Origin: a virus
Direction: 5' to 3' (one strand)
Length of the DNA stretch: 27,019 nt
Virus record (IMG/VR): IMGVR_UViG_3300036826_000154
Location: 1-27,019 of that record
Made by a program: the position numbers and the translations under genes. Under the pieces are notes generated by a model. That model was not told the DNA's origin, did not search any database, and worked only from the letters and a program-made list of their open reading frames with translations. Within the stretch, counting starts at the first letter, position 1; each line of letters begins with the position of its first letter. This document shows, piece by piece, positions 693 to 26,685 of the stretch.

Positions 693-1805
693 TCAGCGGG
701 TGCGCCGGCCGATGTGCAGATGCGTGGTGTGGTTGCCCCAGCCGGGCGCGTCGGTGTTGAAGATGACTTGCCAGCCGCCGATGTTGAAGCCGCCGCCGGT
801 CTGTTTGCGGGCCTGGGCGGCGGGCATGCCGGCGGCGATCAGGGCGTCCTGGCCGGCGCGGATGAGCGAGCGGCCAGTCAAGGGGATGTCGGCGCCGTTG
901 CCTGACCAGTGGTCTGAGACGGTGCCGTTGATGGTCAGCCGGGAGTGGTTGGTGCCGGTGCCGATGGTCAGCGGCGAGCCGTAGAGGCCGGCGACGCGGC
1001 TGACGAAGTTGGTGACGGCCGGGTTGATGTTGACGCCGGCGCGGTTGGCGCCCGATGCGACCGTGACTTTGCCGCCGCCGCCGGTGGTGGTCGTGCCGGT
1101 GGTGGTCGTGCCGCCGCCGCTACCGCCACCGCCGGTCATCTGGCCGGATCCGCCGCTGAGCTGGTCGCCGCCCTGGGTGCGGACGAGCGCGAGCAGTTGG
1201 TTGATGTCGGGCTTGGCCTGCGCCGGTTCGCTGGAGACCGGGGCCTGGTAGCCGGACGGCATCACCGGTCCGGCGGTGAAGCTGGGGGTGGGGAGCGTGG
1301 CCGAGCTCGGCGGGCTCTTGGGGCTCTGGGTCAAAAGCGAGAGCAGTGCCGAGACGTCGGCCCCGGTGGAGTCGGGGCCGGCGGCGGTTGGTCCGCCGGC
1401 CCCGCTCGCGGGGGTGCTACCCGGTGCGGGTGACGAGGTAGTCCCCGGGCTTCTGCCGCCGAGGATGGCGTGGACGTACGCGTTGGTCTCGGCGTACCCG
1501 TGCGACTGCTTGACCGCGCCGGGGCCGGCGTTGTAGGCCCTGAGCGCGTCGGAGTAGTTGCCGAACGTGTTCAGTTGCTGGCGTAGGTAGCGGGCGCCGC
1601 CGAGCATGTTCTGCCACGGGTCGCGGGGGTTGACGCCGAGTCCGCGGGCGGTGCCGGGCATCAGTTGCGTGTAGCCGATCGCGCCGGCGGGGCTGATCGC
1701 GCCGGGGCGGCCGCCGGATTCTTGGCGGACGAGCCGGACGAAGATGTTTGGGTCCACGCCGGCCTGCCGGGCCGCGCGCTGGGCGAGCGTCTGCCAACTG
1801 GCCAC
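693..1805 (-). CDS. Bifunctional peptidoglycan hydrolase: SLT lytic transglycosylase plus M15-like zinc peptidase
   Basis: This 370-residue protein has two cell-wall domains. Residues 5-115 are a soluble lytic transglycosylase (SLT/goose-lysozyme-like) domain with catalytic Glu29 in Q-E-S-G-G, then GYTQLMP (44-50) and AYNAGP (90-95). Residues about 120-250 are a Pro/Ser/Gly/Thr linker including a GGGGSGGG/TTTTG low-complexity run. Residues about 255-370 look like an M15/LAS-type zinc peptidase: S-D-H299-W-x5-D306 and a terminal T-H-L-H-I-G (H362, H364) match the HxxxxxxD...HxH metal site. Such enzymes cut glycan strands and the stem peptide. The start is GTG at 1805 with no clear SD. It is the last minus-strand morphogenesis gene, separated from the internal proteins by 1.3 kb. 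It may be a virion-borne wall-penetrating enzyme or the endolysin; the absence of a signal peptide does not decide this. Confidence 0.87.
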   Translation of the reverse strand: MASWQTLAQRAARQAGVDPNIFVRLVRQESGGRPGAISPAGAIGYTQLMPGTARGLGVNPRDPWQNMLGGARYLRQQLNTFGNYSDALRAYNAGPGAVKQSHGYAETNAYVHAILGGRSPGTTSSPAPGSTPASGAGGPTAAGPDSTGADVSALLSLLTQSPKSPPSSATLPTPSFTAGPVMPSGYQAPVSSEPAQAKPDINQLLALVRTQGGDQLSGGSGQMTGGGGSGGGTTTTGTTTTGGGGKVTVASGANRAGVNINPAVTNFVSRVAGLYGSPLTIGTGTNHSRLTINGTVSDHWSGNGADIPLTGRSLIRAGQDALIAAGMPAAQARKQTGGGFNIGGWQVIFNTDAPGWGNHTTHLHIGRRTR

Positions 1806-1950
1806 GACGCGAAGTGTCGATGCTCACGCGGACGGTGCCGCGGCGGCTAACGCTGCGCGCGGTGGTTGGCCGAACTTGCGCGGCGCGTCACGCTGGTTGT
1901 CCGTGAATCGCCCAGACGCGCGGAGTCGGTGCCAGAACATGTGGCCAATT

Positions 1951-2003
1951 TGCGATCTGCGACTTGCAATGCGCGGTAACTGTCGGCAATCTTTGCCTAG
2001 AAT
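1951..2003 (+). promoter_or_regulatory. Candidate promoter for a structured RNA, with three upstream heptads
   Basis: TAGAAT at 1998-2003 matches the -10 consensus at five of six positions and is preceded by TGCC. The expected start, 6-7 bases downstream, falls on G2009/A2010, exactly the first bases of the 13-bp stem of the RNA candidate. No good -35 is visible at 16-18 bases. Upstream lie three tandem heptads, TGCGATC, TGCGACT and TGCAATG (1951-1971), and a GGCAA-TCT-TTGCC hairpin (1985-1997), which could be activator or repressor sites. The stretch is more AT-rich than its surroundings. Confidence 0.5.
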
Positions 2004-2008
2004 GACGT

Positions 2009-2146
2009 GAAGCGGAGAGGCGGTCTACGCCGTCTGCCCTGCCGTCCACACGGCGTCTCGCCCCCATATCGGCGAGTTCGGATTGGAACCTGGGGCCTGC
2101 GGCAAGACCGGACTAGTGGCCCGGGCATCGGCTGCCTCTCCGCTTC
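2009..2146 (+). ncRNA. Candidate structured noncoding RNA closed by a 13-bp perfect stem
   Basis: GAAGCGGAGAGGC (2009-2021) is an exact inverted repeat of GCCTCTCCGCTTC (2134-2146). Inside, nested pairings are possible without gaps: GGTCT (2022-2026) with AGACC (2105-2109), ACGCCG (2027-2032) with CGGCGT (2051-2056), CTCGCC (2057-2062) with GGCGAG (2071-2076) and GTTC (2076-2079) with GAAC (2086-2089). The result is a multibranched fold. It lies in a 680-base gap without credible genes (1806-2486). A -10 box (1998-2003) places transcription start at its first base on the plus strand. A hairpin CGCGGGA/TCCCGCG (2153-2159/2169-2175) follows. I do not recognise it as tRNA, tmRNA, RNase P or a known riboswitch. 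On the minus strand it would be in the leader of the lysin gene, an alternative reading. Confidence 0.5.
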
Positions 2147-2152
2147 GGCTTT

Positions 2153-2219
2153 CGCGGGAGTCTCATCATCCCGCGCCACGCTGACCGGCGTATCGACGAT
2201 TTCCCGCAAAGTCCGGGAA
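2153..2219. other. Two hairpins downstream of the structured RNA
   Basis: CGCGGGA (2153-2159) pairs with TCCCGCG (2169-2175), and TTCCCG (2201-2206) pairs with CGGGAA (2214-2219). Neither has a T-run. They may form the 3' boundary of the RNA at 2009-2146 or act as GC-rich terminators. The remaining bases to 2416 hold no convincing gene. Confidence 0.4.
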
Positions 2220-2416
2220 GTTGTTGCGCGCGCCCGGTTTCGCCACCGCTCAGCGACGCGACACGGGTGCTCGCTTTCGGGCTGCTGGACGACACCGGGC
2301 TGGCCGGCGGCGATGCGTTCGCTGTGGCTCTACGGCTGCACACCATGCGCTCATAGCCCTTCGGGCGCGACCCCTAGCAGCATTTGAGTCGTCACAGCAT
2401 TACACGGCAGCCATTG

Positions 2417-2480
2417 GCATTGCAATGCAACGAGCGCACGGTCGTGAATGCGCTCGCGCCAATGTTGGCGTCCGTAAATT
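2417..2480 (+). promoter_or_regulatory. Promoter/operator region of the XRE regulator
   Basis: Two palindromes precede the regulator start at 2487. GCATTGCAATGC (2417-2428) is a perfect 12-bp palindrome. CGCCAA-TG-TTGGCG (2457-2470) is a perfect 6-2-6 inverted repeat. TAAATT (2475-2480) is a good -10 box that ends six bases before the ATG, so transcription would begin at or next to the start codon (leaderless mRNA). The second palindrome lies directly upstream of the -10, where a bound repressor would block RNA polymerase. Autoregulation by the adjacent protein is the simplest inference. Confidence 0.5.
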
Positions 2481-2486
2481 GCGCCG

Positions 2487-2738
2487 ATGCTGCCCGACGG
2501 TGACCGCATGCTGTTCTGGATCGCGATCGCCTGCCGGGAGGCCCGGGAAAGCGCGGGGCGTCTCACTTCGCAGATCGCTGCCGAGCGTTACGTCGATCAG
2601 TCGACGGTCACGCGCTTTGAGACCGGGACCAAGCGCGAGATCGACGTGGACGCGATGGTGGCCGCCTACGCGCGCGATCTGGACATCGATCCGCGCGAGT
2701 TGTGGCGGCGCGCCTTGGAGCTCTGGCGGGATGCCTAG
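2487..2738 (+). CDS. Small XRE-type helix-turn-helix regulator
   Basis: An 83-residue protein, almost entirely one helix-turn-helix domain: R-E-A-R-E-S-A-G (17-24), then R-L-T-S-Q-I-A with the recognition helix in V-D-Q-S-T-V-T-R-F-E-T-G (36-47), and a helical tail ending L-W-R-R-A-L-E-L-W. This is the Cro/CI/XRE architecture, binding operators as a dimer. M1 at 2487 fits the leaderless promoter (-10 TAAATT six bases upstream); M8 at 2508 is the alternative. No SD is present. The palindrome CGCCAATGTTGGCG just upstream is a likely operator. It faces away from the structural operon, with the membrane protein gene at 2963 downstream. It could be an immunity-type repressor or a late-gene switch; the target genes are unknown. 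Confidence 0.72.
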   Translation: MLPDGDRMLFWIAIACREARESAGRLTSQIAAERYVDQSTVTRFETGTKREIDVDAMVAAYARDLDIDPRELWRRALELWRDA

Positions 2739-2962
2739 CGCGTGCGTCGCGGCCAAGGTGCTGAAGCCGACGCGGCGGTGCTGGCGTTGACGTAGGCGTA
2801 CGCGGTCAGCCGGCGGAAGTCGGGCAGACCGGTCAGGGGCGGGCGGGACGGTGACCGATGTCGTGCGCGCGCCGGCGCGGTGGTGGCCATGCGGGGCATG
2901 ATGCGCGCCGGGGCGGACGGGTGCGGGTATGGTTGGCGTCCACTTATCCCGGAGGGTTCACA

Positions 2963-3157
2963 GTGCTCGACTCGCTCGTCAATCTGCTCGACAACCTCGG
3001 CCTGCTGTACGGCATCGCCGTCCTGCTGGCGATCGTCGGCGCGGTGGTCGTCGGCACTGTCGAGCTGGTGCAGCACTTCGTGTGGTTGCGGCGCGAACGC
3101 CGGATGCTGCGCGAATCAGCGACCGAGCGTTTCGAGGATGGTCTGAGCCCCTGGTGA
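2963..3157 (+). CDS. Small single-pass membrane protein
   Basis: GTG at 2963 follows a strong SD (GGAGGG, 2951-2956; six bases spacing), which decides the start within a longer open frame. The 64-residue product has an amphipathic N-terminus, one transmembrane helix (about residues 14-37, rich in Ala, Val, Ile, Leu and Gly) and a charged tail with R-R-E-R-R and alternating acidic residues. The SD leader CGGAGGGTTCA matches that of the peptide gene at 25098. TATGGT (2928-2933) may be a -10 box. Its last 42 bases overlap, tail to tail, the end of the 1045-residue minus-strand gene. Holin-like or superinfection-exclusion functions are possible, but nothing in the sequence selects one. Confidence 0.6.
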   Translation: MLDSLVNLLDNLGLLYGIAVLLAIVGAVVVGTVELVQHFVWLRRERRMLRESATERFEDGLSPW

Positions 3158-6100
3158 CAGGCTCGGGCCGGCCGATCCCTGCATCGACTTCAGGATCTCC
3201 GACGCGCCCGGGCTCAGGTACGACGGCCGCTTGCTGCCGGTCCGGATGCCGAGCTGCTTCTCCACGGTGCGCGTCTGGTCGAGAACCCGCTGATAGGCCC
3301 GGGTCCGCGATCCGTCCGCGCGGTAGGCGTCGCCGTCGTGGCGCATCTGCGTCGCCTTGGCCTGGAGGTAGTTGTAGGTCGTCTGCCAGCGCTGCTGCTG
3401 GATCTGTGGCGTGGAGAACGGCGCGACCTTCAAGCCGGTGGCGTAACCGAACAGCTTCTGCCCGGTGGTCTGCCCGCGCGAGGTCGGCAACCCGGTCCCG
3501 AGTTGCAGCGCCACGCCCGATGCCGGCGTTTGCTTGAGCAGATAGTCCAGTTTGGCCGGCCAGCCCCAGACTCGTTTGCCGGTGGTCTTGTCGGTGTATT
3601 GGCGGATGTGCAGGTCACGCAGGATCGCGTCGCCTTGTCCGCCGGGGATCTTGCGGACCGCGTTGATCAGCCAGCCGGGCGCGGGCTTGAGCGTGCGGAC
3701 CGTCTCGCCGTGCGGGCCGGGATGGTTGAGCAGCTCGTCGATCGGCGCCCGGAAGAAGAAGTTGTAGTTCTGGCTGAGTTCGACCGGCGCCTTGATCAGC
3801 GGCGTGAGCATCGACATCAGGTAGTTGCCCTGGTCGCGGACCGTCAGCCGGGAGAGATCCATCGCCGGCAGCTTCGGGTAGAGCAGTTGGCCCGTGCCGG
3901 GCACCGGGATCGGCAGCCCCTGCTGCTCAAACAGCCGCAGGTTGCGCTCGTAGCCCTCCGGGGTCTGGGAGGACTTCTGCGCCTCTTCGCGCGCGAGCTC
4001 GAGGTTGGCGAACTTGCGCGGCTTCTCCAGCAGCGTCCGGATCTGCAGCGGCGTGTTGCGGGCGGTGAACGTGTAGAACGGGAAGATCCGCCGCAGTACG
4101 GTCCGCTCAAACGTGGTCAGGTCGGCATAGTCGAAGTGGTGGCGGGCCACCCATGCGCCGGCCTGATCGGGCGTCAGGCCGCGGCGGCGAGCGGCGATAT
4201 AGGTCATCAGCCGGACGCCGTCCTCGCGGTACTGGCTGATGTCGCGGATCGTGTCGATCGGGTGCGCGAGCTTGCCGGTCACGCGGCCGGTCCCGATCCT
4301 TCGGCCGGTCTCCCCGAGCCGCTTGGTGGCCTTGCCGCGCCCGACCTTCTCTGCCGCCTCCTTGCCCTGCGCGTCGAGCACGTCGGCGAGATCGCGGCCG
4401 ATGAATCCCTGGCCGATCGCGCCGTGGCGCTCGGCCTCCGCCAGCAGATCGGAGACCGGGACGCGCTGACCGCCGATCTTGATGCCCTTCCCACCCGGGT
4501 CGATCTGCCGGTCGAGCGTCTTGAGTGCCGCCTCCCGCTTGGCCTTGGCTGTCAGCACGCGCGCGCTGACGCCGAGACTGCGGGCGAGACTGAACACGTT
4601 GGAGCCGTGGTAGGCGTTGAACAGATCGCCGTAGAGGTTGGTCAGGTGGTACTGCGGGTTGGGGACGGTGAGGATCGTCTTGACCTTGCCCTGCGCGCGG
4701 TCCCAGGTCTTGAAGACGTCATCGAGCCCCTCGAGCCGCTGCGGCACGCCCTGGTTGGCCACCTTGACGAGGTTCGGGTGCAGCAGCCGGTACTCGTTGC
4801 GTCCGGGTGGCGCGCCGCCGGCGAGCAGGCTCTTGAGTTCGTCGCCCTCGACCTTGATCGGCATCTGGCGCGGAGCGAACTTGTAGAGCTCCTCGCCGGG
4901 GTTGGGGATGACCCCGGGATGCCAGACGCGGCCGTTGCGGTGCAGCGCCTGGATGACTTGGTTGCGGCCGAGCTTGACCGCTGAGTCACGCCCGCGCAGG
5001 TAATAGGCGAGCGCCGCATTCTCGGTGTAGATGTCATCCTCGCCGCCTCGGAACTCGGCGTACGGGCGGCGGTTGGTGCGCGCTTTGGATGATGCGAGCT
5101 GCGCTCCGCCCATCCGCCGGCGGCTTCCCTCACGTTCGAGTTCAGATAGAGGCCTGCGTGGGCTGTAGCCGAATTCGGGGAACTTCGCGCCGACTAGCCC
5201 CTCGGCGTGCTCGGCGCCGTGCATGGCGTCGTACTCGCCTCGCAAGAAGCCTGCGGCGCGCCGCTCATCCGGGTTCAGGAGTTCCGTGGAACGCGCCTCA
5301 AGCGCGTCGGTGATGCGCGGATGTTGGTCGCCCGGCAGGATGCGGGCGATGCCTTGCGCGGCATTGCGGACCCGGCGCTCCCCGGTCGCGGCGATTGCGC
5401 GACCGCGGCGCATCGCGTCCCGCACGTCCTGGAACGCCTCCGGGGTCACGCCGTGCGGGCGGATGTTCGGGTTGACCTGTTGCGCGAGCCGGATCGGGAG
5501 TGTGCCGCGCGCTCGCTCGGCGGCCTTGGCGGCGCCGGTGACCCTCGCGGTCTTGCCCAGCCCGGCGCGCAGCAGGCTGCCCTGGCCGAGATTGGCGAAG
5601 TTCACCGGGTCAAAGACGAAATCGAGCCCGAATCCGCCGAGCCCGCGCGCCCACTTGTTCTTGACGCCGGCGGCGGCGAGTACATCAGAGAACGTGTATT
5701 TGTCCTTGCCGGCGATCCCGCGGCCGAGTGCGCGCTGGCGCGCCTTCGCCGCCGGGCTGCCGGGCGCGTGGACGGCGAACACTTCGCTCGGCCCGCCGCG
5801 CTGGATGTCGCTCAGCGTCTCGCCCGCCACGGCATGAAGCGGCCGTGCCAGCGTCTCGAGCACGGCGAGCCCCGGCGCGAGACGGGCGGCGCGCTGCTTA
5901 CGGGCGCGTACCTGGAGCTCGCGCAGGTCAGGGCCGCGTACCTGTCCCGGCTGGATGCGCGCGTTGGAGGGTGTACGCAATCGCGGCGGGTTGATCGATG
6001 GCACCCCGGTGCCGCCGGTCACGATCTGGCGGACCAGCCGCTGGCGGTGATGGATGATCGCCTGCCGACGCGCCTCGCGGATCACGTCGGCCGTGTAACG

Positions 6101-13186: not shown

Positions 13187-13399
13187 TTAGCGAGACGGGC
13201 GTCCCGGGCGGGTTGGCCGAGCGGGCCGGTACGGGCTGCGCTTGGTGCCTTGTCCGGCGCGAATCAGCCGTTGCGCGGCGCGCCGCAGGTCCTGCGGGTT
13301 GGTGCCGGCGAACGTGCGGCCGCGGGTCATCGCCGTCAGCGCCGGGCTCGGGTTGCGGGTGCCGCGACGGTAGGGCTGAACGAGTCTCGTCGCTCTCAT
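13187..13399 (-). CDS. Small very basic protein, unknown
   Basis: A 70-residue protein with about one quarter Arg/Lys and many Pro, Gly and Thr, largely disordered, with one possible helix (L-R-R-A-A-Q-R-L-I-R-A-G at 38-49). The ATG at 13399 overlaps the stop of the homing endonuclease gene by four bases, and 31 bases separate it from the next gene. Such basic peptides can bind nucleic acid or line the capsid interior, but there is no specific evidence. Confidence 0.5.
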   Translation of the reverse strand: MRATRLVQPYRRGTRNPSPALTAMTRGRTFAGTNPQDLRRAAQRLIRAGQGTKRSPYRPARPTRPGRPSR

Positions 13400-13920
13400 G
13401 CGGCCATCTTGAAAACGCGAGCAGCTCGCAACCCCTCGCAGAGTTCAGCCATCCGCGTCCAGTCTCGGGGTTTGGTGCTAACGGGAACCGACGTCCATTC
13501 GCGGACGCCCTCCGCCCATATGGCGAAGTCTCGCGCCTTCTTCGCCCTGAGCGGATAGCGCTCGAAGAACTCCATGAGTCTCAGGCATGGCTCGCGGCCA
13601 TCGACGGCCCAAGAGATGCAAGGGTTGGTCGTCTTGGATGCGGCGCTCGCCCAACCCTTCCGGTCTGCATAGATCCTGCCGATTCCAAGCCGCGCGTGTA
13701 TCTCGTCGAGAATCGGTTGGTCGTCTGCGCGGAGGCTGATTTTGGCAGAGCAGCGATAGCCATTGCCTCTTCCGACGCGGTAGGGCGGGAAGATGCCGAG
13801 AGTCCCTTCGCCATCGAAGAAACCGGAGAACCAGAGCCCGAACGCATCGGCGTCGCTCAAGACGTAAGGGCCTTCCGGGAGATCCAGCGGCGGTAGGGGC
13901 TTCAGCGGCAGAAGGGTCAT
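13396..13920 (-). CDS. Free-standing LAGLIDADG homing endonuclease
   Basis: A 174-residue protein from ATG 13920; an upstream in-frame ATG at 14019 is rejected because it would run 71 bases into the previous gene. The LAGLIDADG helix is at residues 29-39, W-F-S-G-F-F-D-G-E-G with Glu38 in the metal-binding acid position. It is followed by Y-R-C-S-A-K-I-S-L-R (beta strand), D-D-Q-P-I-L-D-E-I (helix), G-I-G-R-I-Y, and a second-half W-A-V-D-G-R-E-P-C-L-R-L-M-E-F-F. One motif means it would act as a homodimer cleaving a near-palindromic 20-bp site. It is an invader that propagates itself into a homologous target. It is packed between virion genes with a four-base overlap downstream, and no intron or intein is apparent. 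There is no clear SD. Confidence 0.85.
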   Translation of the reverse strand: MTLLPLKPLPPLDLPEGPYVLSDADAFGLWFSGFFDGEGTLGIFPPYRVGRGNGYRCSAKISLRADDQPILDEIHARLGIGRIYADRKGWASAASKTTNPCISWAVDGREPCLRLMEFFERYPLRAKKARDFAIWAEGVREWTSVPVSTKPRDWTRMAELCEGLRAARVFKMAA

Positions 13921-13948
13921 GTGTACGGTTACGTGAGCCGGGTGGTCT

Positions 13949-14368
13949 TCACGGGCTGGCCATCTTACGGCGCGCGGGCGTGGGCGCCGCGGCGCGTTCC
14001 CGGGCCTGCTCGAGCGCATGCATGCCGCTGGTCTGCGCGACCGCGACCTGCGTCTCGCCCTGGATGCGGGCCACGTTCTCCTGCGTCTGCCCGCGCTGCG
14101 CCTCGAGCATCACGTCGTGCTGCAACGGCGTGCCGCCCTGCGCCAGCGTCGGGTCGAGGATGACGATCGCCTGCGCGCCGTTCAAAGCGGCGGCCATGAA
14201 GTCCTTGGCGTCCTGCCCCGAGGCGGTGGAAGCACCGACCGCGCATTGCTGGACGGCGTTGAGCAGCGCGTTGGTGACAAGCCGCGGATCGATTTGAGCG
14301 GTGCCGTCGGGGAGCGGCGGGCCTGCCGGCCCCTGCGGCGGCTGTCCGTTCTGGATGGGCGCGGTCAC
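13949..14368 (-). CDS. Helical head/portal-cluster protein, unknown
   Basis: GTG at 14368 is chosen because it overlaps the previous stop (GTGA) and has GGGAG five to nine bases upstream; longer in-frame versions would run into the Cys-rich gene. The 139-residue product has a Pro/Gly-rich first 20 residues, then helices (I-D-P-R-L-V-T-N-A-L-L-N-A-V-Q-Q, 25-40; A-K-D-F-M-A-A-A-L-N-G-A-Q-A-I, 53-67) and a Gln/Ala/Glu coiled-coil tail ending in a basic cluster. It is adjacent to portal genes. The D-F-x-A-A-L-N-G-A-Q-A-I block looks familiar from phage head accessory proteins, but I cannot name the function. Confidence 0.6.
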   Translation of the reverse strand: MTAPIQNGQPPQGPAGPPLPDGTAQIDPRLVTNALLNAVQQCAVGASTASGQDAKDFMAAALNGAQAIVILDPTLAQGGTPLQHDVMLEAQRGQTQENVARIQGETQVAVAQTSGMHALEQARERAAAPTPARRKMASP

Positions 14369-16958: not shown

Positions 16959-17243
16959 CTAGAAGCCCGCGCGCTCGGACGGCTTGACCTCCCACCGGCG
17001 CTCCGCGCGCATCCGGCGCCCGACCCGTTTCATGTGCGCCTCGATCTCCGGATCGCCCCACTCCGGGTCATAGAACACGGCGAGCCGCTGGTTGCGTTGC
17101 CGGCGGGCGGCCATCTCCGCCGCCATGTTCAAACGATGCTCGCTGCCGCGCAAGTGCGCGACCGTGTCCCGGTTGGAGTAGAACGGGACCTCGCAGATCG
17201 TGCAATGCCCGATCGGCTCGCGGTCCAGGATCACGTAGAGCAT
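16959..17243 (-). CDS. Small protein with U1-like (matrin/JAZ-type) C2H2 zinc finger
   Basis: The ATG at 17243 shares its A with the terminase stop (TGATG), so translation is coupled. The 94-residue product has C14-x2-C17-x12-H30-x5-H36, the spacing of U1/matrin-type C2H2 fingers, which bind double-stranded or structured RNA or DNA in other systems. Residues 37-94 are very basic and helical (A-A-R-R-Q-R-N-Q-R near 50-58, R-V-G-R-R-M-R-A-E-R-R near 75-85). The function is unknown; a DNA- or RNA-binding accessory to packaging is an inference from its place immediately after the large terminase gene. Confidence 0.62.
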   Translation of the reverse strand: MLYVILDREPIGHCTICEVPFYSNRDTVAHLRGSEHRLNMAAEMAARRQRNQRLAVFYDPEWGDPEIEAHMKRVGRRMRAERRWEVKPSERAGF

Positions 17244-19177
17244 CAGTACCCCGAGACGTCGTCGGTGGCCCGCCAGCGCTCCCGGCGGCGCTTGGTGTCG
17301 CGCGGCGCCAGCTCGGCCGCCACCCGGTGGCAGCCCATGTAGCTCATGAGCAGATCGTCGTACGCGCCGGCCTGCGCGCCGTGCTTGGCCGGGTTCTTGG
17401 GGTCGATGACGTATGTGTTGGCCTCCCGCGCGGTCTGCACGCACCGCAGCCCGTGCGTCCCCTCCCGTAGCGCCTGCCCGAACGTCTGCTCCATCAACGG
17501 CTTGGTCCGTAGATCCGTGCTCCAGCCCAGCAGCCGCTCGCGGGCGTCGGCGCGCTCGTCATCGCCGGCGCGGTGCCGGCGATAGAGCAGCCGGTAGCGG
17601 TAGTCCTTCGCCAACGCGTCCAGCACCCCGATACCCAGGCCCGTGACCTCGACCGCCAGCCACGCCTCGTTGTAATACAACGCGGTCAGGTAGAACAGCA
17701 GCGGCAAGTCGTGGATCGGCACCCGCGACCGGTACGAGCAGACCTGCCGGCGGGTGAGATGGTCGAGCACCTGGATCGCCGAATAGTCGCCGTCGCCGGT
17801 GCCGCCCGAACCCTGCGCCACGTCGGCGAACACCACGTACTGCCCATCGGGGCGGCGCTGGTCGGCCGCCAGCCCGGCCTGCGTGTGCTCGTTGACCGGG
17901 TGCGCCCACACCCGCAGCCGGTGCGTCGCGCCCCACCGGTCCAGGTCGACCGGCTCGATCTGATCCGCCGGCACCCACATCGCAATGCCGGGCACGTCCA
18001 CCGTCCCCGCGCGCGTCTTGCGTTCATGCCAGTCCAATCCGCGCAGCACGCCCTCCACTGGCGCGCTGGCCGCCGCCGCCTCACGAATCGCCCGGGCCAC
18101 GAGAATCCCGGGAAATACGGGGCGTCCTGACCCAATGAATGACTGATCTGGGGTGCAGGGATGTTCTTGATGGAACCATTCGACCGACCCGCCGGCCTCC
18201 GGGCCGTTGATGATCGCCCGACGCCAGTTGAGCTGCTCCAGCGTCACGCCGTAGGACTCGACCAGTTCCGTCTCCTCCGGATCCCCGCCGCCGTCCTCGT
18301 CGCCCAGCGTGCGCTCGAACCGCTCGCGTGCGTGCTCGGAGATGAACGGCAGCGAGTTGCGCGGATTGTCCTGCCACCCGTAGAACACCGGCTCCCACAC
18401 CGCGCCGGTGTCCGGGTCCTCCGCGCCGCGGACCGCCATCTCCCACAGCTTGTGAAAGTGGTTGAACCCGTTGGCCGTGGACTCGATCACCCCGATCGTC
18501 TCGGGCTCGAGCGGCAGCGCGTTGAACAACCCGACGCCGTAGTCCGGGTCTTCGTAGTGCGCGTACTCCGACGCGTGCACGATCGACGGGGTCGCGGCGC
18601 GGCCGCCGCCCTTCGCGCCGGCGGTCATCGTCCGGTAGACCGACTTCTCCGACTTGCGGTGCTTTGACCCGAGCTCCATGAACCGGATCCCGTTGCGGCT
18701 GGTGCCGGCGGCGATCACGGCGGGGCGGACATTGAACGGCGCCGCGTTGCTGGTTCCTTCCCCGTAGATCAGTTCGGCGAGCATATGGTCGGTCGGCAGC
18801 CGGTCATACATCAGTGCGGCCATGTCCGCCAGATCAACCGTCGCGTCCGCGCGATGGCAGACCGTCAACGCGGACTGGAACGGCAGTTGCGTGACGCGCT
18901 GCAAGGCCTTGGCCTGAATCCAGGTCGAGGTGCCGAGCTTGCGGGCCTTGCAGACGATCAGTCGCATCGGGCGCCCGGCGGCGCGCTGACGCTCCAGCGC
19001 CTCGTCCAGCGGCGTCATGTGCGCCGGCGTCTCCGGGGTGCGGGCCTGCCACGGCAGCGGGTCCAGTCGCTGCAGTTTGCGTTCCTTGTTGACGATCCAC
19101 AGGCAGTGGCGGGCGAAGAACGGCGTGTCATAGGCCAGCCGGCGGCGTAGTTCCTCGATCTCCCGCTCGGCCGGCAT
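17243..19177 (-). CDS. Terminase large subunit
   Basis: A 644-residue DNA-packaging motor. The ATPase domain has a Walker A-like K-A-R-K-L-G-T-S-T (77-85) of the R-Q-x-G-K-S-T type, and a Walker B region S-I-V-H-A-S-E-Y-A-H (198-207) with Glu204 in the catalytic acid position. The C-terminal RNase H-like nuclease has F-A-D452-V-A-Q-G, D464-Y-S-A-I, V-E510-V-T-G-L-G and Y-D-D608-L-L-M-S, giving the usual acidic metal-binding triad. It translocates DNA into the procapsid through the portal and cuts it. ATG at 19177 lacks an SD; TAGCGT (19184-19189) ends six bases upstream, suggesting a leaderless internal promoter. The ORF upstream (19219) may be a partner; no confident small terminase was found. 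Confidence 0.93.
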   Translation of the reverse strand: MPAEREIEELRRRLAYDTPFFARHCLWIVNKERKLQRLDPLPWQARTPETPAHMTPLDEALERQRAAGRPMRLIVCKARKLGTSTWIQAKALQRVTQLPFQSALTVCHRADATVDLADMAALMYDRLPTDHMLAELIYGEGTSNAAPFNVRPAVIAAGTSRNGIRFMELGSKHRKSEKSVYRTMTAGAKGGGRAATPSIVHASEYAHYEDPDYGVGLFNALPLEPETIGVIESTANGFNHFHKLWEMAVRGAEDPDTGAVWEPVFYGWQDNPRNSLPFISEHARERFERTLGDEDGGGDPEETELVESYGVTLEQLNWRRAIINGPEAGGSVEWFHQEHPCTPDQSFIGSGRPVFPGILVARAIREAAAASAPVEGVLRGLDWHERKTRAGTVDVPGIAMWVPADQIEPVDLDRWGATHRLRVWAHPVNEHTQAGLAADQRRPDGQYVVFADVAQGSGGTGDGDYSAIQVLDHLTRRQVCSYRSRVPIHDLPLLFYLTALYYNEAWLAVEVTGLGIGVLDALAKDYRYRLLYRRHRAGDDERADARERLLGWSTDLRTKPLMEQTFGQALREGTHGLRCVQTAREANTYVIDPKNPAKHGAQAGAYDDLLMSYMGCHRVAAELAPRDTKRRRERWRATDDVSGY

Positions 19178-19839: not shown

Positions 19840-22152
19840 CTAGCTCACGGTCAGGTCAACGTAGCTCGTGGCGTCGAGTGTGTCCCCGATGAACAGCACA
19901 CTCCCTGAGTCCACGGCCTCCACGTGGTCGCCCGCGTTTTTGGGGCTCGCGCTCATGGTTTGCCCCGCGCGGTTGTAGAGGCGCGCGACCTCATCCGCCT
20001 GCATCGCGTAGCCCGTAACGAACGCACCGTCGATCTGGCCAGTGAAGGGCAAGGTGCCGTCGGCCGCAGCGCCGACGCGAAAACGGTTGGCGCCGCCCAG
20101 CGACACCGCGTTGAGCACCATCGCGCCCGCCACCAGGCGCCCGTCCAGGTAGAGCTTGCGCCGTACGCCGTCGCCCGCCGCGTTGTCCTCGATGACTACG
20201 AACTGGTGCCACTGGCCGTCCGCCACGAACGGCCCGACTATGGCGTCCCCCGCGCAAGAGTTGTTCAGTGCGCCGTTCTGGGTGTGCGTGCTCACGCCCT
20301 GCCCCGACGCCCCATAGGCCACGACAGACTGCGTGGTCGCGTCTGTGCGCGTCGTCTTGAACCAGCAGCCGTAGGAGCGGGCGTTGGTCCCGGACGGCAA
20401 CCCCGCATCCGTCGCTGACAGCGACTGCGCCCCCGCGAAACTGAACCCGCCGCCGAGCGTCCCGTCCGCCCCCGCCACCGCGACAGCCGAGCCGTTGTTC
20501 GTCAGCGCCGTGCCGTTGGACCCCTGATCCGTCAACGCCCCGGCCGTGAAGTTGTGCAACCTGAGCGGTGTCGTGGTGAAGTCCGTGGTGGCGAGCGGGG
20601 CGCCGCGGCGTTGGCGGCGGACGTTCAGGCTCACCGTCTTGGGTTGCGCTCCCAGGGTGTGGGGGATGCGGGCGGCGTAGAGGGTGCGGATTTGGTCTTC
20701 GGTGAGGATGTCGGCGCTGACGAACGCCTCATCGACGCGACCGAACCACGGGCTGCCCGCTGCCGTCGAGCCGTCCGCCTGCTGCGCCCCGATGTTCAGC
20801 GGGCCGCTACTGGCAAACGCCGTCCCGGCAGTGGACACGACCGCCTCCATCACGCCGTCCACGTAGCCGCGCAGCGCCGTGCCGTCGAACGTCACCACCA
20901 CCTGATGCCAGCGATCATCCGCCACGTCGGAGACGCCGTACGCCTGCGTCAGGGCTGAGCCGTCCAGGCTGACCCAGCCGTTGAATACGTTGTTGACGTT
21001 GATCGCCAGGGCGTAGCCGTACTGTCCCGCCGCTCCCAGCTTGGTCACCAGCGTCTGTACCGTCCCCCGCTTGGCCGTGCGAAACCAGCACCCCCACGAC
21101 CCCGTCGAGATCCGGAACGGATCACCAGCGCCCGTGTCTGCGACATACAGCGCCTGCGACGTCGAGCCGGTGAACTGCGCCGCCGTGCTCGCGGCCCCGT
21201 TGATGCCGGGCGCGAACGTCACGCCGCCCTTGTTCGCCAGGTTGCGGCCGTTCCCGCTCGCGTCCGTGAGGTCGGACAGGTTCCACAGGCCGCGCGGCGC
21301 GCTCAACCCGAGGTTGGTGAAGTCCGAGAGCGCGAGTTGCCGTCCGGCGCGGACCTGCCCGACCTGACCGACGTCGGAGACGAGCGCGCTGACCGTCGGC
21401 CCCGTCGGGCCAGGGATGCCCTGCGGTCCGGTCGCGCCGGTATCGCCCTTCGGCCCCTGCGCCCCGGTCGCGCCCGCCGGTCCGGTCGCGCCGGTCGGTC
21501 CCGCCGGCCCCTGCGGCCCCTGCGGCCCGATGCTCCCCGGGGTGCTGACCAGCGCGATGTCCTGCCAGCCCGTGGCGGTACGCACCCGGACCGCATGGTC
21601 CTGCGGCACGGCCACGCGCGGCGACTCGTCGGTGTCGATCCACACCGAGCCCTGCGCCTGCGCGCCCGGGTCGGCGGGCTGCTCGAACACCGTCACCGCC
21701 CCCGGCGCCCCCGGCGGGCCGGGGCTGACCTTGACCCACACGCCGTCCACATAGACGTATTCGCTCTGGTCGGGGCGCAGGAACACCTCGTCGCCGTTTG
21801 AGCCGGTGGCCGGCAGCACGTCGACCACCGACAACCCGTGGCCGCCCGGGACGCCGTCGGTGCCGATCTCGTCCTCCAGCGCCTTGATGCGCTCACGGTC
21901 AGTCAGCGCCGGGCGCGTGAACCGCTGGCTGGGATAGGTGACAAAGCGCACCCCCCGCCCCAGCGCGTACGCCACGTATCGCTCCCCGTCGGCCAAGTTG
22001 TCGAACGACAACTGGCTCTGAGGCCCGACCGTGGCCGTGGCCGCCGGCTGCCCGTTCGGCTTGGAGTTGGGGTCCGGCCACTGGCGCGCCGGGTAGACCG
22101 ACACGTTCTGGCCGACCGGCCACGGCACCGAGCCGATGGTGAACGACGCCAT
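19840..22152 (-). CDS. Tail fibre with collagen-like stem and two LamG-like lectin domains
   Basis: A 770-residue protein. Residues 1-80 form a small beta domain with G56-E-R-Y59, shared with the neighbouring 222-residue protein. Residues about 90-200 form a linker; 206-252 contain 15 or so Gly-x-y collagen repeats (for example G-P-Q-G-P-A-G-P-T-G), which trimerise. Two tandem LamG/concanavalin-like domains follow: residues about 287-495 (G-C-W-F-R-T at 354-359, W-H-Q-V-V-V-T-F at 415-422, Y-V-D-G near 430, G-R-V-D-E-A-F at 471-477) and 530-730 (G-C-W-F-K-T at 595-600, W-H-Q-F-V-V-I, L-Y-L-D-G-R, G-Q-I-D-G-A-F). Such domains bind cell-surface sugars. A C-terminal 40-residue cap follows. ATG 22152 has no SD; coupling to the gene ahead is likely. 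Confidence 0.87.
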   Translation of the reverse strand: MASFTIGSVPWPVGQNVSVYPARQWPDPNSKPNGQPAATATVGPQSQLSFDNLADGERYVAYALGRGVRFVTYPSQRFTRPALTDRERIKALEDEIGTDGVPGGHGLSVVDVLPATGSNGDEVFLRPDQSEYVYVDGVWVKVSPGPPGAPGAVTVFEQPADPGAQAQGSVWIDTDESPRVAVPQDHAVRVRTATGWQDIALVSTPGSIGPQGPQGPAGPTGATGPAGATGAQGPKGDTGATGPQGIPGPTGPTVSALVSDVGQVGQVRAGRQLALSDFTNLGLSAPRGLWNLSDLTDASGNGRNLANKGGVTFAPGINGAASTAAQFTGSTSQALYVADTGAGDPFRISTGSWGCWFRTAKRGTVQTLVTKLGAAGQYGYALAINVNNVFNGWVSLDGSALTQAYGVSDVADDRWHQVVVTFDGTALRGYVDGVMEAVVSTAGTAFASSGPLNIGAQQADGSTAAGSPWFGRVDEAFVSADILTEDQIRTLYAARIPHTLGAQPKTVSLNVRRQRRGAPLATTDFTTTPLRLHNFTAGALTDQGSNGTALTNNGSAVAVAGADGTLGGGFSFAGAQSLSATDAGLPSGTNARSYGCWFKTTRTDATTQSVVAYGASGQGVSTHTQNGALNNSCAGDAIVGPFVADGQWHQFVVIEDNAAGDGVRRKLYLDGRLVAGAMVLNAVSLGGANRFRVGAAADGTLPFTGQIDGAFVTGYAMQADEVARLYNRAGQTMSASPKNAGDHVEAVDSGSVLFIGDTLDATSYVDLTVS

Positions 22153-26603: not shown

Positions 26604-26685
26604 GCGCCGCGGCCGCCCGGGGTTAGCCCGGGTCCGGCCGCGGCGCGTGGCAATCCCGCCACGGCAAGAGGCTTTGGAGGCCTTG
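26604..26685 (+). promoter_or_regulatory. Structured leader B with conserved SD block
   Basis: GCGCCGCGGCCG (26604-26615) is the perfect reverse complement of CGGCCGCGGCGC (26635-26646), with an inner CCGGG/CCCGG stem (26617-26621/26627-26631). A second hairpin CGTGGC-AATCCC-GCCACG (26646-26663) follows, then AAGAGGCTTTGGAGGCCTTG (26666-26685) ending two bases before ATG 26688. The block is the same as in leader A except for one base. GGCAAG/CTTGCC around it can also pair, which could occlude the SD. Confidence 0.6.

Follow-up and report, generated by a model that had tools for sequence, protein, structure and literature searches.

The stretch of DNA analysed here, called the window throughout, comprises 27,019 nucleotides of an incomplete virus record from a podovirus-like soil phage with 69% G+C. 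Its genes are read leftward, starting with the terminase gene and continuing with those for a portal-like protein, the major capsid protein, tail proteins, a protein of 1045 aa and a transglycosylase lysin. An intergenic gap of 681 nt (1806-2486) separates the lysin gene from a small rightward gene of the XRE type, and for this gap a sequence-only reading had proposed a structured noncoding RNA with its own promoter. The accompanying statement that the gap holds no credible complete gene is borne out by codon scoring in all frames. The codons of one plus strand reading frame at 2232-2356 (…SDATRVLAFGLLDDTGLAGGDAFAVALRLHTMRS, stop at 2356) are mildly coding-like; this frame lacks a usual start codon and matches no protein. 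The gap is, tentatively, best read as a lineage-specific control region between the leftward lysin gene and the rightward genes for the XRE protein and a small membrane protein. The features of the locus are the following:

693-1805, minus strand: transglycosylase lysin gene (Pfam SLT, E 1e-21; PHROG endolysin, E 9e-28), directed away from the element
1951-1971, plus strand: three contiguous heptads, read from the sequence, in an A+T-richer stretch upstream of the -10-like box
1998-2003, plus strand: -10-like box TAGAAT, the sole hexamer in 1806-2486, both strands considered, that agrees with TATAAT at five of six positions
2009-2021, plus strand: 5' arm of the 13-bp inverted repeat (closing stem), pairing probability about 1
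2022-2133, plus strand: interior of the stem, no more stable than shuffled sequence
2134-2146, plus strand: 3' arm of the 13-bp inverted repeat, found by repeat search, pairing probability about 1
2153-2175, plus strand: predicted hairpin CGCGGGA-9 nt-TCCCGCG
2194-2226, plus strand: 13-pair hairpin with G-U pairs and no U-tract, stable on the plus strand only
2475-2480, plus strand: TAAATT, agreeing with TATAAT at only four of six positions, its end six bases upstream of the XRE start codon (ATG)
2487-2738, plus strand: small helix-turn-helix gene of the XRE type, encoding 83 aa (Pfam HTH_25, E 8e-5, slightly short of the cut-off)

The perfect inverted repeat of 13 bp lies where it had been described, from 2009 on, as does the box, TAGAAT, which ends five bases ahead of it. 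Perfect inverted repeats of at least 13 bp with arms within 350 nt occurred in 3 of 400 shuffled versions of the gap (0.75%), and a box of this kind, in the right orientation and 4-8 bases outside an arm, in 0.5% of shuffles (p about 0.005), values that are optimistic because the features were noticed first and tested afterwards. In a Markov sequence of the size of the window (27 kb, dinucleotide content matched), about 0.8 perfect inverted repeats of at least 13 bp are expected, a figure summed over the 13, 14 and 15 bp classes. A longer perfect repeat, of 14 bp, is found at 20497-20510/20712-20725, within a tail-fibre-like gene.

Compared with shuffled sequences, the element as a whole folds with pronounced stability, with z values of -4.08 on the plus strand and -4.20 on the minus strand for 2009-2175, and of about -4 on both strands for 2009-2146. 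The former ranks sixth by z among 299 fold windows, and equally extreme windows exist. Against -4.2/-4.1 for the whole element, z was -0.4 (plus) and -0.6 (minus) when the arms were held fixed and the interior was shuffled, and the interior folded alone gave -0.5 and -1.1, respectively. The z of about -4 is thus due to the 13-bp repeat alone, and nothing in the interior points to selection for a fold; as regards stability over shuffled sequence, the proposed structure holds for the whole element and fails for its interior. This carries a lesson of method, as a single 13-bp repeat in 69% G+C DNA suffices for a fold z of -4, and the interior therefore needs testing with the arms held fixed.

The nested inner stems that had been listed for the element fare unevenly. 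On the plus strand, where the closing stem has a pairing probability of about 1.0, CTCGCC/GGCGAG (2057-2076, also about 1.0) alone among the listed inner stems is secure, while GGTCT/AGACC (0.03) and ACGCCG/CGGCGT (0.01) are essentially unformed and GTTC/GAAC (0.26-0.36) is minor. The nesting was not confirmed as a special feature. The minus strand fold of the element is more clearly branched than the plus strand fold. Searching Rfam at gathering score returned no match to the element, and relaxing the threshold to E 10 yielded chance-level matches only; a tRNA/tmRNA search found none. A hammerhead-like string on the minus strand (2146-2175) was discarded, as its stem II is unformed and no Rfam ribozyme matches. 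What would mark a conserved structured-RNA family, a fold stable throughout or a match to a described family, was not observed.

For the gap as a whole, 0.7 hexamers that agree with TATAAT at five or more positions are expected, and one is seen. No consensus -35 element was found for TAGAAT, no hairpin with a T-run that could act as intrinsic terminator occurs within 1500-3200, and the minus strand of the gap has no -10 box. The run of heptads, TGCGATC TGCGACT TGCAATG, was confirmed; the stretch 1926-2000 that includes them is enriched in A+T, with 45-50% around the heptads, whereas most of the gap has about 30%. The gap has two copies of the nine bases TTGCAATGC, at 1964-1972 and at 2420-2428. 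The second belongs to a palindrome, GCATTGCAATGC, which precedes the XRE gene and could be an operator; by my own estimate, about one nine-base repeat such as TTGCAATGC is expected by chance.

The stability of the gap is biased with regard to strand, the whole gap giving z -3.1 on the plus strand and -0.9 on the minus strand. Upstream of the repeat, 1806-2008 is less stable than shuffled sequence (z +1.6/+1.8), and downstream of it the stretch 2175-2260 gives -2.7 (plus) and +0.4 (minus). The hairpin at 2194-2226 holds on the plus strand only because of its G-U pairs, and is possibly a 3' end or a processing structure. The XRE gene has no evident ribosome site, and from its position and sequence TAAATT may be the promoter of a leaderless XRE gene, in which case a transcript starting at 2009 would not have to serve as the XRE leader.

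No DNA matching the element stretch was found by blastn in the phage collection, and no similar DNA over this stretch in the plasmid collection, where one match covers 40 bases outside the element (2263-2302, in the reading frame that stops at 2356; the matching part of a Streptomyces clavuligerus plasmid is unannotated) and a second covers 35 bases in Pseudoroseomonas. The stem pattern has eight matches among 2.9 million viral contigs, none with similarity beyond the stem. An internal 17-mer had one match in the viral contigs, which was set aside as an unrelated, A+T-rich and coding-looking stretch. A covariance model, which being built from one sequence has little reach and gives weak evidence of absence, recovered the element and no other locus from about 530 kb of sequence belonging to relatives and to contigs that carry the lysin; another 20 records gave no match.

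Searches with the major capsid protein identified twelve viral contigs in which it is 58-69% identical, besides a few with lower similarity. Among public phage records, matches to the capsid are distant, at no more than 33% identity, and the portal-like protein has no match. For seven relatives, the comparison with the window covered the entire contig. The order from the large structural gene to the lysin gene is kept in contigs G002 and G007 and in the contigs reached through the lysin, and nothing resembling the gap of the window lies between these two genes in the relatives. The folds of the lysin-side gaps are weaker than that of the window, with z about -2.5 in G002 and -2 to -2.7 in G010, and at chance level in G007 and G008. 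The corresponding gaps in the relatives carry repeats of 8-10 bp that are at or near chance level, and as their folds are weaker and their closing stems of 8-10 bp proved not robust, the lysin-side gaps of G002, G010 and G008, which had at first looked similar, were dismissed as structural counterparts.

A small membrane protein is encoded on the strand opposite to the lysin gene at the junction of the large structural gene and the lysin in the window, in L002/L099, L098, G002 and G008:

Window, 2962-3157, plus strand: junction membrane protein
L002, 5735-5947, minus strand: junction membrane protein
L098, 4342-4901: junction membrane protein, holin-like
G002, about 22465 onward: junction membrane protein
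G008, 41870-42195: junction membrane protein

The junctions of L098 and G008 were considered as counterparts of the RNA and rejected, since they encode a small, holin-like membrane protein instead. On the lysin strand, directly before the lysin gene, G002 has a strong terminator-like hairpin of 14 pairs with TTTCGTT (22041-22076, the same as 2041-2076 of L063, minus strand); the hairpin of G010, at about 4337-4378, is GC-rich and has TTTT after it.

As a single well-placed box goes together with a folding bias towards the plus strand, the leading reading is a short, lineage-specific untranslated plus strand RNA that starts at the stem, which I put forward tentatively, as plausible rather than probable. 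A sigma-70-type promoter with TAGAAT as its -10 box would give a plus strand RNA from about 2009 that would open directly with a stem of 13-17 bp (2009-2146), shielding its 5' end, and would continue into the hairpins at 2153-2175 and 2194-2226, where it would end or be processed. Such a product would be a stable small RNA or a short leader, separate from the XRE gene; its transcription, its ends, its stability and any role are what I infer from these features. An RNA with its own promoter and its 5' end on the stem, as had been proposed, retains the placement of the box and the strand bias in its favour, and has against it the missing -35 element and T-run terminator, an interior at the level of shuffled sequence and the failure to find a homologue in the collections searched. 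Roles as scaffold, antisense or packaging RNA, suggested at the same time, found no support, for packaging because the phage has an ordinary large terminase (17243-19177, conventional type; PHROG 24361, E 4e-16; PHROG 2, E 2e-6). That a lineage-specific phage small RNA of about 140-220 nt, with its own promoter between the lysin gene and the unit of regulator and membrane-protein genes, times lysis or the lysis-lysogeny choice in this uncultured podovirus lineage seems quite unlikely.

Alternatively, a 13-bp repeat may have come to lie beside a -10-like hexamer by chance, in a G+C-rich and weakly constrained gap, with no product at all. This explanation ranks second, only just behind the first, and I take it to be a serious possibility, in keeping with the number of perfect repeats of at least 13 bp expected per 27 kb (about 0.8) and with the 14-bp one inside the frame of a tail gene, with the lack of excess structure in the interior, and with the relatives, none of which (among those examined) keeps the repeat and whose equivalent gaps have only repeats of 8-10 bp at or near chance level. 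However, two coincidences would be needed, each of less than 1% by the optimistic values above: the location of the repeat in the main non-coding gap and its position right beside the only good -10 box there. The folding bias of the plus strand adds to both. If the repeat is not accidental, it could also act as DNA, its arms being inverted sites for a regulatory protein, for example the product of the adjacent XRE gene, or the ends of a decayed miniature mobile element. The arms are perfect inverted duplicates beside a regulator gene, the repeat itself is the only feature beyond chance, and the spacing of the arm centres, 125 bp or about 12 helical turns, makes DNA looping possible. A role of this kind is nevertheless unlikely, as the window has no third copy of the arm (10 matches with at most three mismatches against 18 expected), a target-site duplication is absent (the element is flanked by GACGT and GGCTT), and the phage and plasmid collections are without similar DNA over this stretch. 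Least probable, to the point of being very unlikely, is a role on the minus strand, with the stem in a leader or attenuator of a late transcript running into the lysin gene. The fold of the element is equally stable there, and its branching clearer, and the pre-lysin hairpins of G002 and G010 on the lysin strand would fit. However, the window has no such hairpin between 2009 and the lysin start, where 1806-2008 is even less stable than shuffled sequence, and the minus strand has neither a -10 box nor a gap z beyond -0.9.

Known systems resemble the putative plus strand RNA in part. The lambda 6S/PR' leader, an example of a phage small or promoter-proximal leader RNA, adjoins the lysis genes, and the element is likewise short, apparently untranslated, provided with its own promoter-like box and adjacent to lysis genes; unlike such RNAs it is without a T-run terminator, is read away from the lysin and has no relative among the sequences searched. 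The phi29-type pRNA goes with a gp16-type packaging ATPase instead of a large terminase; it shares with the element the closure of a predicted phage RNA by end pairing, whereas this phage has a conventional large terminase and the element has no Rfam match. 6S RNA is a long rod with a central open bubble, in contrast to the branched interior of the element, which has no Rfam 6S match. A miniature inverted-repeat element (MITE) would similarly be a short stretch bounded by 13-bp perfect terminal inverted repeats, but here the target-site duplication is absent and neither the phage and plasmid collections nor the viral contigs (stem pattern) hold further copies. In phage HK022, the put RNA is a cis-acting antitermination RNA of about 70 nt with two stem-loops downstream of early promoters (PMC9378689). 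As in put, the stem-loops of the element start at or near a phage promoter, if the box is one, whereas the element has a closed domain of 138 nt and two hairpins, lies at a lysis-gene junction and precedes no long downstream operon.

Were the element transcribed, it would add a further case to the untranslated RNAs that phages encode at lysis-gene junctions, here in a lineage of soil podoviruses with no close members in culture. An inverted repeat beside a promoter-like box is in itself a finding of limited weight, at most modest and as yet unproven.

Elsewhere in the window, several other fold windows have z values similar to that of the element, some by virtue of short GC-rich hairpins. Two of these, strong and perfect and without T-run, at 298-331 (11 bp) and 26604-26646 (12 bp), are probably terminators or insulators. 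A homing endonuclease of the LAGLIDADG type (Pfam PF00961, E 2e-10) is encoded on the minus strand inside the block of structural genes (13396-14019); PHROG labels its product HNH (E 4e-7). On the plus strand at 509-580, a frame of 23 codons, MRGILIALTVYVVTVWFVARSRS, has a strong ribosome site, GAGGGAGG, and a start codon buried in a stable hairpin (fold window at 478, z -5.6); its predicted product is a small membrane peptide, perhaps involved in lysis or similar to a type I toxin.
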